Shown: positions 29,728 to 36,358 of the stretch, piece by piece
Layout of the letters: each line of letters starts with the position of its first letter
Position numbering within the stretch: position 1 is the first letter of the stretch
From: Pseudomonadota bacterium
GTDB taxonomy: Bacteria > Pseudomonadota > Gammaproteobacteria > Burkholderiales > Gallionellaceae
Reading direction: 5' to 3'
Assembly (NCBI GenBank): GCA_021848465.1
Contig: JAJZUP010000002.1
Coordinates: 248,001-312,000 of the forward strand
Length of the DNA: 64,000 bases
Made by a program: the position numbers and the translations under genes
The notes under the pieces: model-generated
Database searches by the model: none
What the model saw: the letters and a program-made list of their open reading frames with translations, nothing else
What the model was told of the DNA's origin: nothing

Positions 29728-30546
29728 TTATACAAACAAATCTTCCTGCAAATTTGCGCCCGGCTGCATCGCATAGTGCGCGAAATCGCTGATACCTTCT
29801 TCACACAGCACCTGCTCATCAATGAAAAAATTCCCGCTGCATGCCCGGCTGCCGCGGAGCAGGATGACATGCGCCGCATCGGCCATGATGGCCGGTTTGC
29901 GTGAAGCTTGCAGTATTTCCGGCGGGAAGTTGTTCGCAATCGCGGCAGTGGCGATCGTCGTGCGCGGCCACAGACAGTTGCAGGCGATGCCGTCGGCGGC
30001 AAACTCGCGCGCCATGCCCAGCATGCACATGCTCATGCCAAATTTTGAAATGCTGTACGCGGCGTGCGGCGCGAACCATTGCGCATCCATATTGAGCGGC
30101 GGCGACAGGGTCAGCACGTGCGGGTTGGCCGCCTGTTTCAGGTGCGGAATGCAGGCTTGCGTGACCAGGAAGGTCGCGCGCATGTTCACCGACCACATCA
30201 GGTCAAGCTGCTTCGGGGTGGTTTGCAGCGTGGGCGTCAAGGCAATCGCGCTGGCGTTATTGACCAGCACATCGAGGCCGCCGAAATGCTGCACGGCCTG
30301 CTCCACCGCGGCGCCGATGGCCTGCGCATCGCGCACATCCAGTTGCAGCGCGAGTGCGCGGCCGCCGGCCTGGCGCACCTCTTCCGCCACCTCATGGATG
30401 GTTCCAGGTAGCTTCGGATGCGGCTCGGCGGTCTTGCCGGTAATCACCAGGTTGGCGCCGTCGCGCGCACAGCGCAGCGCAATCTCGCGCCCAATGCCGC
30501 GGCTCGCGCCGGTGATGAAGATGGTCTTGTTGTGCAAACCGGACAT
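29728..30546 (-). CDS. Short-chain dehydrogenase/reductase (HSDL2-like)
   Basis: A 272-aa classical SDR. It has the TGASRGIGREIALRCA cofactor loop, NNASAIALT and the catalytic AYSISKFGM (YxxxK). Overall it resembles the hydroxysteroid-dehydrogenase-like 2 group, whose substrate is uncertain but which is often found with lipid metabolism genes. It is positioned between fadE and the acyl-CoA synthetase with short gaps, so a role in acyl chain oxidation or reduction is likely but not proven. Confidence 0.85.
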   Translation of the reverse strand: MSGLHNKTIFITGASRGIGREIALRCARDGANLVITGKTAEPHPKLPGTIHEVAEEVRQAGGRALALQLDVRDAQAIGAAVEQAVQHFGGLDVLVNNASAIALTPTLQTTPKQLDLMWSVNMRATFLVTQACIPHLKQAANPHVLTLSPPLNMDAQWFAPHAAYSISKFGMSMCMLGMAREFAADGIACNCLWPRTTIATAAIANNFPPEILQASRKPAIMADAAHVILLRGSRACSGNFFIDEQVLCEEGISDFAHYAMQPGANLQEDLFV

Positions 30547-30583
30547 CGGTTCCCCCTTGCTGTTTGCAGCCCTGCGCGCTGTC

Positions 30584-33013
30584 TCAGGCGTGCAATGCCT
30601 CCGGCGCGAAATCGTCCACCATGATCACCTTGCGTCGCAGGTTGTAGTCCAGTTCCAGTTGCGCCGCCTGCTCGGCATTGATCAGCCCCATATCCCATGC
30701 CTCGGCAATCAGGCCCGGCTCATCCAGCGCCTTGAGCTTGCCTTCCTTGCGCGCACGCGCCAGCTCGGCCTGCAGCGGCTCGCACTGCAGCGTGCTCTCC
30801 AGTGCCGCTTCCAGCGCCCCGAGCGGCTCGTTTTCGTTCGCGGGGAGGTAGCATCCGGCGGTCAGGCGATCGCGCGCATCTCCCCGGCTGGAAAGCAGCG
30901 TGGCGACCTCATGACCGAGCGCATCGGAAGGCGGCTTGCGCCACTGCCCGAGCGGGAAGATCAGCGCGCGCAGCAACAGTGCTGCCAGGCGGTTCGGGAA
31001 ATTCTGCAGCACGCCATCCAGGGCTTGCTGGATGCGGTACAGGCCGTCCCGCATGGCCCAGTCCAGCAGCGGCAAGTCTTCGACCGGACGGCCGTCGTCC
31101 TCGAATTTTTTCAGCACGGCGGAGCACAGATACAATTGGCTAAGTACATCGCCCAAGCGCGCCGACAGTTTCTCGCGGCGCTTCAGGCTGCCGCCCAGCA
31201 CCAGCATCGACATGTCCGCCGCAATCGCAAACGAGGCCGAATAGCGCGTCAGCATCTGGTAGTAATGGTGGGTCGGCTCGCCAGTGGGAGCATGCACAAT
31301 GCGGCTGCCGCTGGCCGCGAACAGCAGCGAACGCACCGCATTGCTGAGCGCAAAGCTGATATGCGCAAACAGTGCCGCATCAAAATCCATGACCGCACGC
31401 TTGCGGTCCGCGTCATGCGCGGCCTTGATTTCCTTCAGCACATACGGGTGGGCGCGCACCGCGCCCTGCCCGAAGATGATCAGGCTGCGCGTCAGGATGT
31501 TGGCACCCTCGACGGTAATGCCGATCGGGGTCTGCTGGTAAAAGCGCGCCAGGTAGTTGGACGGCCCCATGCAGATGCCCTTGCCGCCATGCACATCCAT
31601 CGCGTCATTGATGACTACGCGGCCGCGCTCGGTGCAGTGGTATTTCACGATCGCGGAAATAACCGAGGGCTTCTCGCCGGCATCGACTGCCTGGGCCGTC
31701 AGTGTGCGCGCAGCTTCCATCACATACAAGTTGCCGGCGATGCGCGTCAGCGCCTCCTCCACCCCTTCGAATTTTCCTACCGGCACGTGGAACTGCTTGC
31801 GCACGCGGCCATAGGCGCCGCTGCTGCGCGCAGCCAGCCGGGCGCTGCCGGTGGCACTGGCGGGCAACGAAATCGAACGCCCCGCCGCAAGGCACTCCAT
31901 CAGCATGCGCCAGCCCTGGCCGATGCGCTCGGCACCGCCAATGATGTAATCGAGCGGGATGAAAACGTCCTTGCCTTGGGTCGGCCCGTTCTGGAACGCG
32001 GAGTTGAGCGGGAAATGGCGCCGCCCGATCTGGACGCCGCGCGTGCCGGTCGGGATCAGTGCCAGCGTGATGCCGCGTTCAACCTCAGGGCTCAGCAGTT
32101 TATCCGGATCGTACAGTTTGAACGCCAGCCCCAGCAGCGTCGCCACCGGCGCCAGTGTGATGTAGCGTTTTTCCCAGGTGACGCGCACGCCCAGCACATT
32201 GGCGCGCCCTTCGAATTCGCCGTAGCACACGATGCCGGTATCCGGAATGGCCCCGGCGTCGGAGCCGGCAAACGGCCCGGTCAACGCGAAACACGGAACC
32301 TCCTCCCCGTGCGCCAGGCGGCGCAGGTATTTGTCCTTCTGTTGCTGGGTGCCATAGTGCAGCAGCAATTCGGCCGGGCCGAGCGAATTTGGCACCATCA
32401 CGGTCACTGCTGCCGAACCACTGCGCGAGGCGATTTTCGCCACCACTGCTGAGTGGGCCTGAGCCGAGAATTCCAGCCCGCCATAGGCCTTCGGGATAAT
32501 CATGCCGAAGAAGCCCTTGTCCTTGATGAACTGCCAGACCGCCGGCGGCAAATCCTGGCGCACATGCGTTACGTCCCAGTCATCGACCATGGCGCACAGT
32601 TCTTCCACCTCATTGTCGAGGAACGCCTGCTCCTGCGCGCTCAACACCGGCCTGGGTTGGGCCAGCAGCTTTTCCCAGTGCGGGTTGCCGCTGAACAATT
32701 CGCCATCCCACCATACGGTGCCGGCATCCAGCGCCTCTTGCTCGGTTTGCGAGACGTGAGGCAGGACGCCGCGAAACAGGCTAAGCAGCGGACGACTGAC
32801 CAGCATTCGCCGCAGGAACGGAATGCCGAACACCACCACGAACAGGAACAGCAGCACGTACACCGACTTCAGCGCGGTATCCGAGATCCGGCTCTGCATG
32901 GCAACGAACGGCACGAACACCATTACGGCAATCAGCCAGCTCAGAATGGAAGCCCGGAAAAAGGCCAGCAACAAAAACGTGGCGACCACCAGCGCAAACA
33001 ATAAAACTGCCAT
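30584..33013 (-). CDS. fadE: Acyl-CoA dehydrogenase, FadE type
   Basis: An 809-aa flavoprotein for the first step of beta-oxidation. It has N-terminal hydrophobic segments (about 1-70) not present in ordinary acyl-CoA dehydrogenases, then the ACAD core with CFALTGPFAGSDAGAIPDTG (flavin and substrate contact), VHGGKGICMGPSN and the long C-terminal extension. Length matches E. coli FadE (about 814 aa). It appears to be the first gene of the fad operon; the 100-nt gap upstream separates it from the RsbS-like gene. Confidence 0.92.
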   Translation of the reverse strand: MAVLLFALVVATFLLLAFFRASILSWLIAVMVFVPFVAMQSRISDTALKSVYVLLFLFVVVFGIPFLRRMLVSRPLLSLFRGVLPHVSQTEQEALDAGTVWWDGELFSGNPHWEKLLAQPRPVLSAQEQAFLDNEVEELCAMVDDWDVTHVRQDLPPAVWQFIKDKGFFGMIIPKAYGGLEFSAQAHSAVVAKIASRSGSAAVTVMVPNSLGPAELLLHYGTQQQKDKYLRRLAHGEEVPCFALTGPFAGSDAGAIPDTGIVCYGEFEGRANVLGVRVTWEKRYITLAPVATLLGLAFKLYDPDKLLSPEVERGITLALIPTGTRGVQIGRRHFPLNSAFQNGPTQGKDVFIPLDYIIGGAERIGQGWRMLMECLAAGRSISLPASATGSARLAARSSGAYGRVRKQFHVPVGKFEGVEEALTRIAGNLYVMEAARTLTAQAVDAGEKPSVISAIVKYHCTERGRVVINDAMDVHGGKGICMGPSNYLARFYQQTPIGITVEGANILTRSLIIFGQGAVRAHPYVLKEIKAAHDADRKRAVMDFDAALFAHISFALSNAVRSLLFAASGSRIVHAPTGEPTHHYYQMLTRYSASFAIAADMSMLVLGGSLKRREKLSARLGDVLSQLYLCSAVLKKFEDDGRPVEDLPLLDWAMRDGLYRIQQALDGVLQNFPNRLAALLLRALIFPLGQWRKPPSDALGHEVATLLSSRGDARDRLTAGCYLPANENEPLGALEAALESTLQCEPLQAELARARKEGKLKALDEPGLIAEAWDMGLINAEQAAQLELDYNLRRKVIMVDDFAPEALHA

Positions 33014-33113: not shown

Positions 33114-33452
33114 TCAGTCCGGGACGCTGAGGGCGGTCTCGAAGACCGGCTTCCGCGACAGGAAGCCGGACAACGCATAAGCAGCAGTTGGCTGCATGTT
33201 GATGCACACCATGGTGATATTTACGGTCTGGCATGCACGGGCCAGCGTGTCGAGCCAGTCATAGTAGGCCTGGTCGATTACCGGCAGCGTGTGCAGGTCA
33301 TAATACAGGCGCTTGCCCTGTCCTTGCTGCATATGGGCAACCACCTCCTCTATGAGCTTGTTCCGCAACCGGATGTCCAGGCTGCGCAACGGCTCAAGCA
33401 GGAAGTTTCCGCGCCCGATACGCGTCAGGTGAACGCCCGGAATAGCCATCAA
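33114..33452 (-). CDS. RsbS-like STAS-domain protein lacking the phospho-serine
   Basis: A 112-aa single-domain protein overlapping the RsbR-like stop by 4 nt. The order of strands and the block YYDLHTLPVIDQAYYDWLDTL align with the RsbS/RsbR region where the phosphorylated serine follows 'hhD'. Here that position is Gln (VIDQ). Position after an RsbR-like and an RsbT-like gene supports an RsbS role in a stressosome, but similarity is weak. Without a phosphorylatable residue it would need a different switching mechanism, or it may be a non-switching structural subunit. Confidence 0.55.
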   Translation of the reverse strand: MMAIPGVHLTRIGRGNFLLEPLRSLDIRLRNKLIEEVVAHMQQGQGKRLYYDLHTLPVIDQAYYDWLDTLARACQTVNITMVCINMQPTAAYALSGFLSRKPVFETALSVPD

Positions 33453-34318
33453 CTGCTTTTCTGCGTGACCTGGATGCCCATGCGCAGGAAGGCCTCCTTG
33501 AGGCCGTCGGACAGGCTCGCACGCGTGGTCACGGCGCTCAGGTCAATGTTCAGACTGACCAGCGCACGCGCAATTTCCGGGTGGATGCCGGTGATGATCG
33601 CGTCCGCCCCCATCAACTGCACCGCGCGCACCATCTGGATCAGGTGGTGCGACACCTGCGAGTCGATGTTCTTCACGCCGGTCAGGTCCATCACCACGGC
33701 GCGCGAGCGATCCCTGGCGATGCGGCTGAGCAAGGCCTCCATCACCAGCATGGTGCGGCTGGAATCGAGCGTGCCGATAATGGGCAAGGTCAGCACGCCA
33801 TCCCAGATTTCGGCAATCGGGGTGGAAGTCTCGCGCAACTCCTCCTCCTGCGCCTTCAGCGTGTTTTCCCGCTCGCTCAGGTAGGTGCGGAACACCGCCA
33901 TGATCAGCTCGTCGAACAACTGGGCAAAGAACAGCAGCACCGAACGCGACTGGGTGAAGGCGACGCCGCTATCCTGCTCAAGCACGGCAATCAGGTTGTA
34001 CTGCAACTGCTGTGCGTAGCGCACCACATCCTCGACATTGCCGCCGCGCATCAGCATGCGCTGCGCGAGGCTGGAAAAAAACGACTCCAGCGCATGAAAC
34101 TGCGGGGATGTGCGTTTGTGCGGATCTTTTGAGCCCAACATGGCTGCAATCAGGTTGACGAATTCGCCGCTCAGATCGCTGACCTCATCCTCATCCATCA
34201 GCTTGTTGTCCGCGCAGAAAAACTCACGTCCGACTTCCTCCAGTTGCGAGGAAATGTTGCCGATCTTGAGCCCGAATAATGCGGTGAGCTTTTCGCTGCT
34301 TTCCTTTTTTTGCACCAT
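33449..34318 (-). CDS. RsbR-like stressosome protein (sensor plus STAS)
   Basis: A 289-aa protein. The helical N-terminal sensor half (about 1-155) is followed by a STAS domain (about 165-280) with STPIAEIWDGVLTLPIIGTLDSSR, VMDLTGVKNIDSQVSHHL and GIHPEIARALVSLNIDLS. This closely follows the RsbR pattern. The residue matching the first RsbR phospho-threonine is Ser (NIDS); the second site appears to be Ala (EIARALV). The start MVQKKES at 34318 has GGGAG upstream. It overlaps its neighbours slightly, consistent with co-translation of a stressosome set. Confidence 0.8.
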   Translation of the reverse strand: MVQKKESSEKLTALFGLKIGNISSQLEEVGREFFCADNKLMDEDEVSDLSGEFVNLIAAMLGSKDPHKRTSPQFHALESFFSSLAQRMLMRGGNVEDVVRYAQQLQYNLIAVLEQDSGVAFTQSRSVLLFFAQLFDELIMAVFRTYLSERENTLKAQEEELRETSTPIAEIWDGVLTLPIIGTLDSSRTMLVMEALLSRIARDRSRAVVMDLTGVKNIDSQVSHHLIQMVRAVQLMGADAIITGIHPEIARALVSLNIDLSAVTTRASLSDGLKEAFLRMGIQVTQKSS

Positions 34319-34332
34319 ATTGTTTCTCCCTT

Positions 34333-35376
34333 TTACCCTATCGAACATACACAAATTGATTGATCATCAGATATCCGTCCCATGATGTTGCCGAGCGTGT
34401 AGGCGATCAGTTGCGGATGCTGGTGAAACAGGCCGGAAAAATTCGCCACATCCCAGTTGCGGCGTATCCCGTCGCTTGCAGTAATGATGACATGTTTCTT
34501 GCCGAAATCGGCCTCGATTTCGGTGGTCGAGCGATGCTCACGCCCGAGGATGCCTGGTGCGAACGTAAGATGCTGCATCTGCTCCTGGTCATAAATATGC
34601 GCACTCATGTCGCCGATCCCGGACAGGCGCAACTCGCACCGGGCCAGGTCAATTTCCCCGGTGACCGCCACCGCGCCGCGCGTATGGACGAGCTGCTGGT
34701 CCACTGCCAGCAGCACCGCCTCAGGCGACTCGTAATTCAACAGGTGAGAAGACAACCCGGTCGTTGCTGCCTGCGCCTCCTCTCCATGCCCGAGCCCGTC
34801 CAGGTGCAACCAGCGCAACAGCTTTCCCTCCCTTTTCAGGTAAACGCGGTCGCCGTTGTAGCGCTCGTCGGACAACGAGCGCGAAAACAGCCCGAATCGG
34901 AAACCGGAACGCGCCTCCTTGTTTTCCTTGCCCAGATGAAAGCGAGCCATGATGACCGTACCAGTCCATTTGCGCGGTGCGTCGGGACGCAGTTGCTGGG
35001 TATAGATGTATGACTCGTCGCTGAGACGGCGGATGGCCCCCAGCCCCTTGCCCAGGGTCTGCGCAGTGGAATAACCGTCTTCTTCCGCTGCGGCAAGATT
35101 GGCGATGCCAGGGCCGAAATCCAGTGACAGCAAGTCCAGCACATTGCCGGGCTGCTTCCAGAGCTGCACCATGCCGCGGCCGCCAGCATGCTTGACGTTG
35201 TTGCTGACCAGCTCGGAGGCAACCAGCAACATGTTTTCCTGCTTCAGTTCGCTGACGCCGAGACGCTGGGTGATTGCCATCAGCTTGGAGCGCAATAAAA
35301 TCAGGGCACTTTCCGTTTGCGTGGCATTGTTGAACAGCAGTTTGCAATCCGTGGCGCTATCGAAAATATCAGTCAC
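34333..35376 (-). CDS. RsbT-like kinase fused to RsbX/SpoIIE-like phosphatase
   Basis: A 347-aa protein. The N-terminal GHKL ATPase (about 1-145) has LLVASELVSNNVKHAG (N box), DFGPGIANL and LGKGLGAIRRLSDE, as in RsbT. The C-terminal PP2C/SpoIIE-type domain (about 150-347) has LHLDGLGHGEEA, SGIGDMSAHIY and ITASDGIRR. In Bacillus these activities (RsbT and RsbX) are separate proteins; here one chain could both phosphorylate and dephosphorylate the STAS partners. Start is GTG at 35376, overlapping the upstream stop by 8 nt with AGG about 7 nt before; the track ORF is too long. Confidence 0.82.
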   Translation of the reverse strand: MTDIFDSATDCKLLFNNATQTESALILLRSKLMAITQRLGVSELKQENMLLVASELVSNNVKHAGGRGMVQLWKQPGNVLDLLSLDFGPGIANLAAAEEDGYSTAQTLGKGLGAIRRLSDESYIYTQQLRPDAPRKWTGTVIMARFHLGKENKEARSGFRFGLFSRSLSDERYNGDRVYLKREGKLLRWLHLDGLGHGEEAQAATTGLSSHLLNYESPEAVLLAVDQQLVHTRGAVAVTGEIDLARCELRLSGIGDMSAHIYDQEQMQHLTFAPGILGREHRSTTEIEADFGKKHVIITASDGIRRNWDVANFSGLFHQHPQLIAYTLGNIMGRISDDQSICVCSIG

Positions 35377-36358
35377 TGAGCACCTTTTCCTTGCAATTTC
35401 CTCCACACATCCGGCTATCCAGATTGCTGCAATGCGCCACCACGGCACGGCCGCGCCCACGCCGCTTCGCCTCATACAGCGCACTGTCCGCGGCATGGAT
35501 GAAATTTTCCAGCGTGAAATTATCCGGAGTGTTGCGGTCAATCGTCGCAATGCCGACGCTGGCCTTGCCGTCCATCTGTTCGATGACCTGCTTGGCCTTT
35601 TCGCACGCAGTGCTGAAATCGGCATAAATCATCATGGCAAACTCATCGCCGCCGAAACGGAACGCGGCATCCACGTCTTCGCGGATTACGCTACGCAACA
35701 CATGCGCCATCCGGTTCAGGTAGGCATCGCCATACAGGTGGCCATGTTCGTCGTTGATGTTCTTGAAAAAATCCAGGTCCAGCATCACCAGTGTCAAAGG
35801 CGTCGTACGCTGACGCATGGTGTAGCGGAACGCCTGCTTCAGGCGCTCGTCGAAAGCGCGCCGGTTCAGCAGCATGGTGAGCGGGTCGGTCTCGGCCTGG
35901 CGCATCGAAACCTGCAATTCCGCCTGACGGCTTAACAGTTTCGCCTGCATATCGGCCAACTCGGACTCGGTACGTTTGCGCGTCTCTTCCAGGAAGCGCT
36001 GCATGGCGGCATTGCGCTGGGCAAGGATGTCGGTATCGATCGACTCGGTGGATTTGCTGAGGTAGTCGCGCAATTGTTCCAGCGCGCCGGCTTCGTAACA
36101 GCCAAGATCGGTCACGGTGAACACATGCTCATTCCAGTGAACGTTCAGGCGCCCCTTGTGCATTAACAGCGTGACATGGAACGGCTGCCCGCTGCAGGCT
36201 CCGGCATGGCGCAAGCGCTGGGTCAAATCAAGACAGGCGCGCGAAGCTCTGTAGGCATTCCCTTTCAGGCGCCACACACTTTCCATGAGAAAGCCGACAA
36301 AATTCTGGAGATCAGGTTCGATTGCCAGATTCAGCCGCAGAAGCTCCACTGATTCCAC
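35369..36358 (-). CDS. Diguanylate cyclase (GGDEF) heading the stressosome-like operon
   Basis: A 329-aa soluble protein. A novel N-terminal region (about 1-110), a helical coiled-coil linker (about 110-165) and a GGDEF domain (about 168-300) with LDLDFFKNINDEHGH and FGGDEFAMM. The I-site position reads EDVD instead of RxxD, so product inhibition is probably lost. Start is GTG at 36358, about 23 nt after the predicted transcription start. As first gene in the Rsb-like operon it is the natural output: stress sensing would then change cyclic di-GMP. Confidence 0.85.
   Translation of the reverse strand: MESVELLRLNLAIEPDLQNFVGFLMESVWRLKGNAYRASRACLDLTQRLRHAGACSGQPFHVTLLMHKGRLNVHWNEHVFTVTDLGCYEAGALEQLRDYLSKSTESIDTDILAQRNAAMQRFLEETRKRTESELADMQAKLLSRQAELQVSMRQAETDPLTMLLNRRAFDERLKQAFRYTMRQRTTPLTLVMLDLDFFKNINDEHGHLYGDAYLNRMAHVLRSVIREDVDAAFRFGGDEFAMMIYADFSTACEKAKQVIEQMDGKASVGIATIDRNTPDNFTLENFIHAADSALYEAKRRGRGRAVVAHCSNLDSRMCGGNCKEKVLSD

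Follow-up and report, generated by a model that had tools for sequence, protein, structure and literature searches.

We analysed a 64,000-nucleotide stretch of contig JAJZUP010000002.1 (assembly GCA_021848465.1, Gallionellaceae), called the window below, in which four genes read on the minus strand from position 36358 to 33114 encode a diguanylate cyclase (DGC), a fusion of an HATPase-type kinase with a SpoIIE-type phosphatase, and two STAS proteins resembling RsbR and RsbS of the stressosome. We refer to this block as the cassette. Its features are:

35369..36358, minus strand: DGC, 329 residues, GTG start; intact GGDEF motif; the canonical RxxD inhibitory site (I-site) is absent (E227xxD230)
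35888..36358, minus strand: DGC N-terminal domain (β-α-α-β-β-β-α) and long neck helix; unclassified; may be a degenerate RsbT-like HATPase in which the ATP-lid motifs are missing
34333..35376, minus strand: fusion of an HATPase (RsbT/RsbW-type kinase) with a SpoIIE/RsbX-type PP2C phosphatase, 347 residues, GTG start at 35376; kinase boxes and metal Asp residues conserved
33449..34318, minus strand: RsbR-like protein, 289 residues; helical N-terminal domain (weak RsbRD_N match) and STAS domain; Ser186 and Ser220 correspond to RsbR phosphosites T171 and T205
33114..33449, minus strand: RsbS-like protein, STAS-only, 111 residues; Gln60 stands at the RsbS phosphoserine position

The DGC and fusion genes overlap by 8 nt, a 14-nt gap separates the fusion from the RsbR-like gene, and the two STAS genes overlap by 1 nt. 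For the fusion gene, the mechanically called open reading frame (ORF) 34333-35625 starts too early and the GTG at 35376 was used instead. An earlier interpretation made from the letters of the window (the sequence-only reading) had described this order of GGDEF protein, kinase/phosphatase fusion, RsbR-like and RsbS-like genes, overlapping or nearly so, and the present annotation confirms it. Searches of each protein with hidden Markov models (HMMs), which that reading had proposed as a check, returned GGDEF for the DGC (5e-34), HATPase_c_2 for the N-terminal half of the fusion (3.5e-7) and STAS for the RsbR-like protein (4e-14); two further matches, to SpoIIE and to STAS in the RsbS-like protein, fell under the Pfam cut-off and are weighed with the model below.

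Conservation of the cassette

When 85,462 species genomes were searched with a profile of the fusion, 47 loci came up, recorded as Gallionellaceae, Gallionella, Sideroxydans, Sulfuricella, Thiobacillus, Hydrogenophil-, Nitrosomonadales, a Chromatiales and other proteobacteria. Within contig limits, gene order and strand are constant in all 47: the DGC accompanies the fusion at 44 loci, the RsbR-like protein at 44 and the RsbS-like protein at 41, the absent genes falling past contig ends. Thirteen further cassettes read at class level displayed the DGC, fusion, RsbR-like and RsbS-like genes every time, and the four-gene block is found across many beta- and gammaproteobacteria. Its flanks vary, the nearest neighbours falling in many unrelated groups, and the proteins diverge between loci, the DGC N-terminal domain to about 40% identity. 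Because the block recurs 47 times with diverged proteins and different flanking genes, it is not a chance arrangement; at the level of sequence comparison the four genes are strictly conserved together.

A profile of the DGC N-terminal domain gives the same picture from the other end of the operon. In even draws of genomes it matched 25 of 300 from the order and 16 of 369 from the class, while a draw of 399 from the phylum returned only the window, one genome of the same order and one marginal match. Outside the class, the domain is practically absent. The fusion gene lies directly downstream of it at 39 of 41 loci; the two exceptions are pieces of a single broken copy. Two genomes (G085 and G141) each hold this cassette plus a canonical RsbR-S-T-X operon; the two are therefore separate systems.

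The STAS proteins and the kinase-phosphatase fusion

Residue conservation was counted over 51-54 sequences per protein. The RsbR-like protein matches solved stressosome RsbR proteins in the PDB (1.2e-30 and 1.5e-28) and joins canonical RsbR in the STAS tree (91/96). Ser186, placed on T171 by the alignment of the PDB match, is found in all 51 sequences, and the T205 position, residue 220, is Ser in 48 and Thr in three, so that both predicted phosphosites are kept. Profile-profile comparison places the RsbS-like protein among RsbS-type STAS proteins (hhalign E 1.4e-7). In the tree it forms its own clade (92/100), whose exact sister is not resolved and which carries a long-branch warning; against other STAS proteins of the source genome this clade falls inside the stressosome set (98/96). 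The stressosome-type STAS pair of the sequence-only reading is thus upheld, with one reservation on its second member; the outcome which that reading had named as refuting it, STAS proteins that fail to group with RsbR and RsbS, did not occur. Position 60, aligned by hhalign with the RsbS phosphoserine, is mostly Pro, Gln or Glu, with Thr in 3 of 52 sequences and Ser in none. To judge from this alignment the RsbS-like protein has lost its phosphosite, and it cannot therefore be a classical RsbT substrate. No canonical RsbS was found in the source assembly, which is 86% complete.

In the fusion, the kinase N-box (E55/N59), G1 box (D86-G88-G90) and G2 box (G109-G111-G113) are invariant, as are D176, D193, D302, D337 and D338 of the PP2C half, and by these residues both predicted active sites are kept. 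The PP2C half matches the SpoIIE-type structure 3zt9 in the PDB (1.2e-5) and RsbX 3w40 (0.006); 3zt9 is mentioned in connection with the Moorella system (PMC7647112). The earlier claim that kinase and phosphatase form one chain is borne out by this fusion, which is co-conserved with the cassette, and its label of RsbT-RsbX fusion has to be revised. A classical RsbT-RsbX fusion was rejected as an identity, the HATPase grouping with the RsbX-fused HATPase of another operon: in the HATPase tree it is sister to that of the TX fusion of G025 (99/96) and stands apart from stand-alone RsbT. Stand-alone RsbT itself is missing, no short HATPase_c_2 (PF13581) ORF being found in the 86% complete source assembly, where the sole stressosome-type HATPase is that of the fusion.

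The G025 operon, from the same bacterial family, encodes RsbR, an RsbS with intact Ser, RsbT, the TX fusion and a hybrid histidine kinase with an RsbT-like HATPase N-terminus. Runs of RsbT, TX fusion and HATPase-fused output kinase also occur in another class (G525, G1227, G1130, G1099). Since TX fusions exist in other operons, the fusion is not peculiar to the cassette, which is set apart instead by the loss of both RsbT and the RsbS phosphosite. Separately, canonical operons of G085, G231, G175 and G308 (L093-L096) carry two RsbT-like genes in tandem: RsbT itself and, immediately ahead of RsbX, another such gene. The HATPase-RsbX fusion may have arisen from a state of this kind.

The diguanylate cyclase

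The motif RFGGDEF and residues K199 and D203 are invariant in the DGC family, and the GGDEF active site as predicted from them is intact. The canonical RxxD I-site is absent from all 52 family sequences, where the Arg position holds Glu, Gln or other residues and never Arg; the sequence-only reading was correct on this point. R226 and D230 (window 35669-35683) are invariant in the same 52 sequences, with the spacing RxxxD rather than RxxD. The two residues might form an inhibitory site that has shifted, or might pair for structural reasons; as the invariant Arg226 lies one residue before the I-site Arg position, a non-canonical inhibitory site is possible.

The region preceding the GGDEF domain was modelled with AlphaFold2 from 37 aligned members (predicted local distance difference test, pLDDT, 86) as a β-α-α-β-β-β-α domain that leads into a neck helix about 48 residues long. 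A Pfam search of 38 members gave no match for this domain. A docking domain of RsbU_N type was considered and rejected, there being no Pfam match and the order of secondary structures being different. Compared with RsbT, TX and STAS profiles, the domain profile did not score above controls. In the phylum scan, the one match beyond true members was to the HATPase-fused output kinase in the stressosome operon of G525 (E 2e-4 for one genome); the alignment runs through the first strand, the two helices and the N-box region. Moreover, the neck motif DPxxLxxRNxEM aligns with DPxxExxQNREL, located at the same place in HATPase-fused output kinases. When domain and neck were compared together with these kinases by hhalign, the score was 29.4, whereas the highest among 60 column shuffles was 20.2; the excess came mostly from the neck motif.

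We regard it as marginally probable that the DGC N-terminal domain descends from an RsbT-like HATPase whose catalytic Asn and ATP-lid motifs were lost. As the score above shuffles came mostly via the neck, this ancestry is kept as probable and not proven. The domain may have become a kinase-dead docking module.

Ordinary stressosome operons of other proteobacteria (L015:5369-7153, L179, L182, L183) encode an output histidine kinase with an N-terminal RsbT-like HATPase and the DPxxExxQNREL neck. In the literature searched we came across no account of such a domain arrangement.

A model for the output and its alternatives

Taken together, these features suggest that the cassette is probably a self-contained partner switch of the stressosome type with the DGC as its output. 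It looks like a reduced stressosome whose signal would pass directly to a c-di-GMP-making enzyme in place of a sigma factor. The RsbR-like protein as sensor and the RsbS-like protein as non-phosphorylatable scaffold would form the STAS core. The fusion would add phosphate to, and remove it from, Ser186 and Ser220 of the RsbR-like protein; kinase and phosphatase being fused, both activities of the single chain would have the same substrate. The DGC would dock through its N-terminal domain and neck on the STAS core, or on the fusion, and the phospho-state would determine whether it is kept inactive or left free to dimerise and to synthesize cyclic dimeric guanosine monophosphate (c-di-GMP), presumably without canonical product inhibition. 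In a less certain step, the docking domain would derive from the RsbT-like HATPase found fused to output histidine kinases in other stressosome operons, and would have become kinase-dead. The genome holds 55 GGDEF and 7 PilZ matches; receptors of c-di-GMP therefore exist in it.

Several observations weigh against this model. With 55 GGDEF matches, the cassette DGC is one among many. The SpoIIE match of the fusion (3.6e-4) and the STAS match of the RsbS-like protein (0.008) are those that fall under the Pfam cut-off. For the DGC N-terminal domain, a fold search of the PDB and BFVD with Foldseek returned nothing at E<=0.001, the HATPase N-lobe alone did not exceed shuffled controls in hhalign, and the basis of a HATPase origin is one 20-bit HMM match together with the neck match.

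As in the stressosome of Moorella thermoacetica, the kinase half could itself bind and switch the DGC after the STAS core has released it, the STAS proteins never touching the DGC. The closest stressosome precedent is of this kind, since the kinase MtT binds and attenuates the DGC MtG (PMC7647112); in addition, RsbT drives coiled-coil dimerisation of RsbU, the same being proposed for GGDEF outputs (PMC12143880), and the cassette DGC has a long predicted coiled-coil neck. Nevertheless, its N-terminal domain is not RsbU_N-like and the only kinase is tethered to a phosphatase, and we find this explanation rather unlikely.

Alternatively, the RsbS-like protein could be a dedicated activator binding the DGC neck, the RsbR-like protein and the fusion setting the amount of it that is free. 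In Pseudomonas, a small STAS or STAS-like protein does bind the DGC: HsbR is a bifunctional kinase/phosphatase acting on HsbA, which binds the DGC HsbD (PMC5085249), and SiaC binds the neck of SiaD (PMC8457831). The RsbS-like protein is dedicated to its cassette, with the phosphosite lost. However, these precedents switch by phosphorylation of the small protein, which the RsbS-like protein does not allow at the equivalent site; besides, it resembles stressosome RsbS, and DUF1987, the SiaC family, has no match in the cassette. We consider this possibility unlikely. That the DGC is merely co-transcribed and unregulated by the STAS, kinase and phosphatase proteins would agree with the many GGDEF proteins of the genome, yet is highly improbable given that the block is kept in dozens of genera while its flanks are shuffled, and that the DGC N-terminal domain, in an intact copy, is never seen without the fusion gene.

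Coming back to a partner switch with the DGC docked on its partners, we tentatively suppose, as a possibility that we hold with some doubt, that the cassette could represent a distinct subtype. The RsbS-like protein would be a non-phosphorylatable pseudo-substrate, the one-chain kinase/phosphatase would act on the RsbR-like protein only, and the DGC, through a kinase-dead RsbT-like domain, would compete for the STAS core with the real kinase, so that c-di-GMP synthesis would follow stressosome occupancy directly and no messenger protein would be released.

Neighbouring genes and other observations

The neighbours in the window are a gene 96 nt upstream on the same strand, which from its sequence we take to be QueG-like, and one 100 nt downstream, presumably acyl-CoA dehydrogenase-like, also named from sequence. 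A long opposite-strand ORF (29822-32452) was not counted as a gene. A promoter and terminator scan did no better than on shuffled sequence, and tRNA was the sole match in an RNA family search of the window.

At Sulfuricella loci, a PilT/PilU-type gene of the T2SSE ATPase family lies directly behind the RsbS-like gene on the same strand (L034:8339-9511, at 2 nt; L039:8364-9515), and the downstream genes of L035, L036 and L039 share a homology group with that of L034. Three Gallionella loci have bcsG, involved in cellulose biosynthesis, upstream on the same strand (L027:2133-4505; L026, L059). Both kinds of neighbour are compatible with surface attachment; most other neighbours of the cassette look housekeeping.

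Elsewhere in the source genome (C5:19741-22684; L113, L116, L129, L130), two proteins have a SpoIIE domain followed by an HATPase, with a STAS protein nearby (C5:16890-17159, L124). This set resembles a partner switch of the HsbR/HsbA type.

Comparison with known systems

The cassette bears on how stressosomes without sigma-B signal in Gram-negative bacteria. It is compact and self-contained, its output enzyme lies in the same operon and has a measurable product, and four proteins would suffice to test how a STAS core gates an enzyme. It also occurs in Sulfuricella sp. T08 (L039), whose record is that of a strain and not of a metagenome bin. With an RsbR that is predicted to be phosphorylatable and an RsbS that is not at the usual site, it offers a natural experiment that bears on the debate over whether signalling by the Bacillus subtilis stressosome depends on phosphorylation or not.

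A stressosome driving a DGC is already a known kind of system. The sequence-only reading is supported in taking the DGC for the only output gene, strictly co-conserved with the rest; an output of this type is no novelty (PMC4976288, PMC9237108, PMC12143880). As a four-gene version whose RsbS-like protein lacks the phosphosite, the cassette appears undescribed so far: we did not find it in the open-access literature, a coverage outside which lie Pane-Farre 2005 and 2017 and Quin 2012, where an earlier mention is possible.

The Moorella thermoacetica stressosome, according to Quin et al. 2012 (cited by PMC4976288, PMC7647112 and PMC12143880), comprises MtS, MtT, an RsbX-type phosphatase and MtG. 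It shares with the cassette stressosome STAS proteins, an RsbT-type kinase and a DGC output. It differs in that MtG is an RsbU_N-GAF-GGDEF protein, kinase and phosphatase are separate and MtS is phosphorylated, whereas the cassette has a fused kinase/phosphatase, an RsbS-like protein without phosphosite and another DGC N-terminal domain. RSTX modules with c-di-GMP outputs have been reported in Vibrio, Chromobacterium and Herbaspirillum (PMC9237108), and that of V. vulnificus affects motility (PMC10014275). Like the cassette, these proteobacterial rsbRSTX modules stand beside c-di-GMP enzymes. Unlike it, they have stand-alone RsbT and RsbX, a globin RsbR and the output gene downstream (in Vibrio a two-component pair), while in the cassette the DGC comes first.

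HsbR-HsbA-HsbD also combines kinase and phosphatase activities in one chain with a STAS protein and a DGC, but HsbR, a response regulator, carries a receiver of its own, and HsbA is a classical anti-anti-sigma STAS rather than a stressosome one. SiaABCD groups a PP2C, a kinase, a STAS-like protein and a DGC in one operon (PMC8457831, PMC7647112); it differs in that SiaC is a DUF1987 protein and is itself phosphorylated, RsbR is missing and kinase and phosphatase are separate. The SiaD model scores 106 bits on the cassette DGC, for a cut-off of 290. By analogy, these precedents, HsbRAD, SiaC-SiaD, MtT-MtG and the RSTX modules, make a partner switch acting on a DGC plausible for the cassette.

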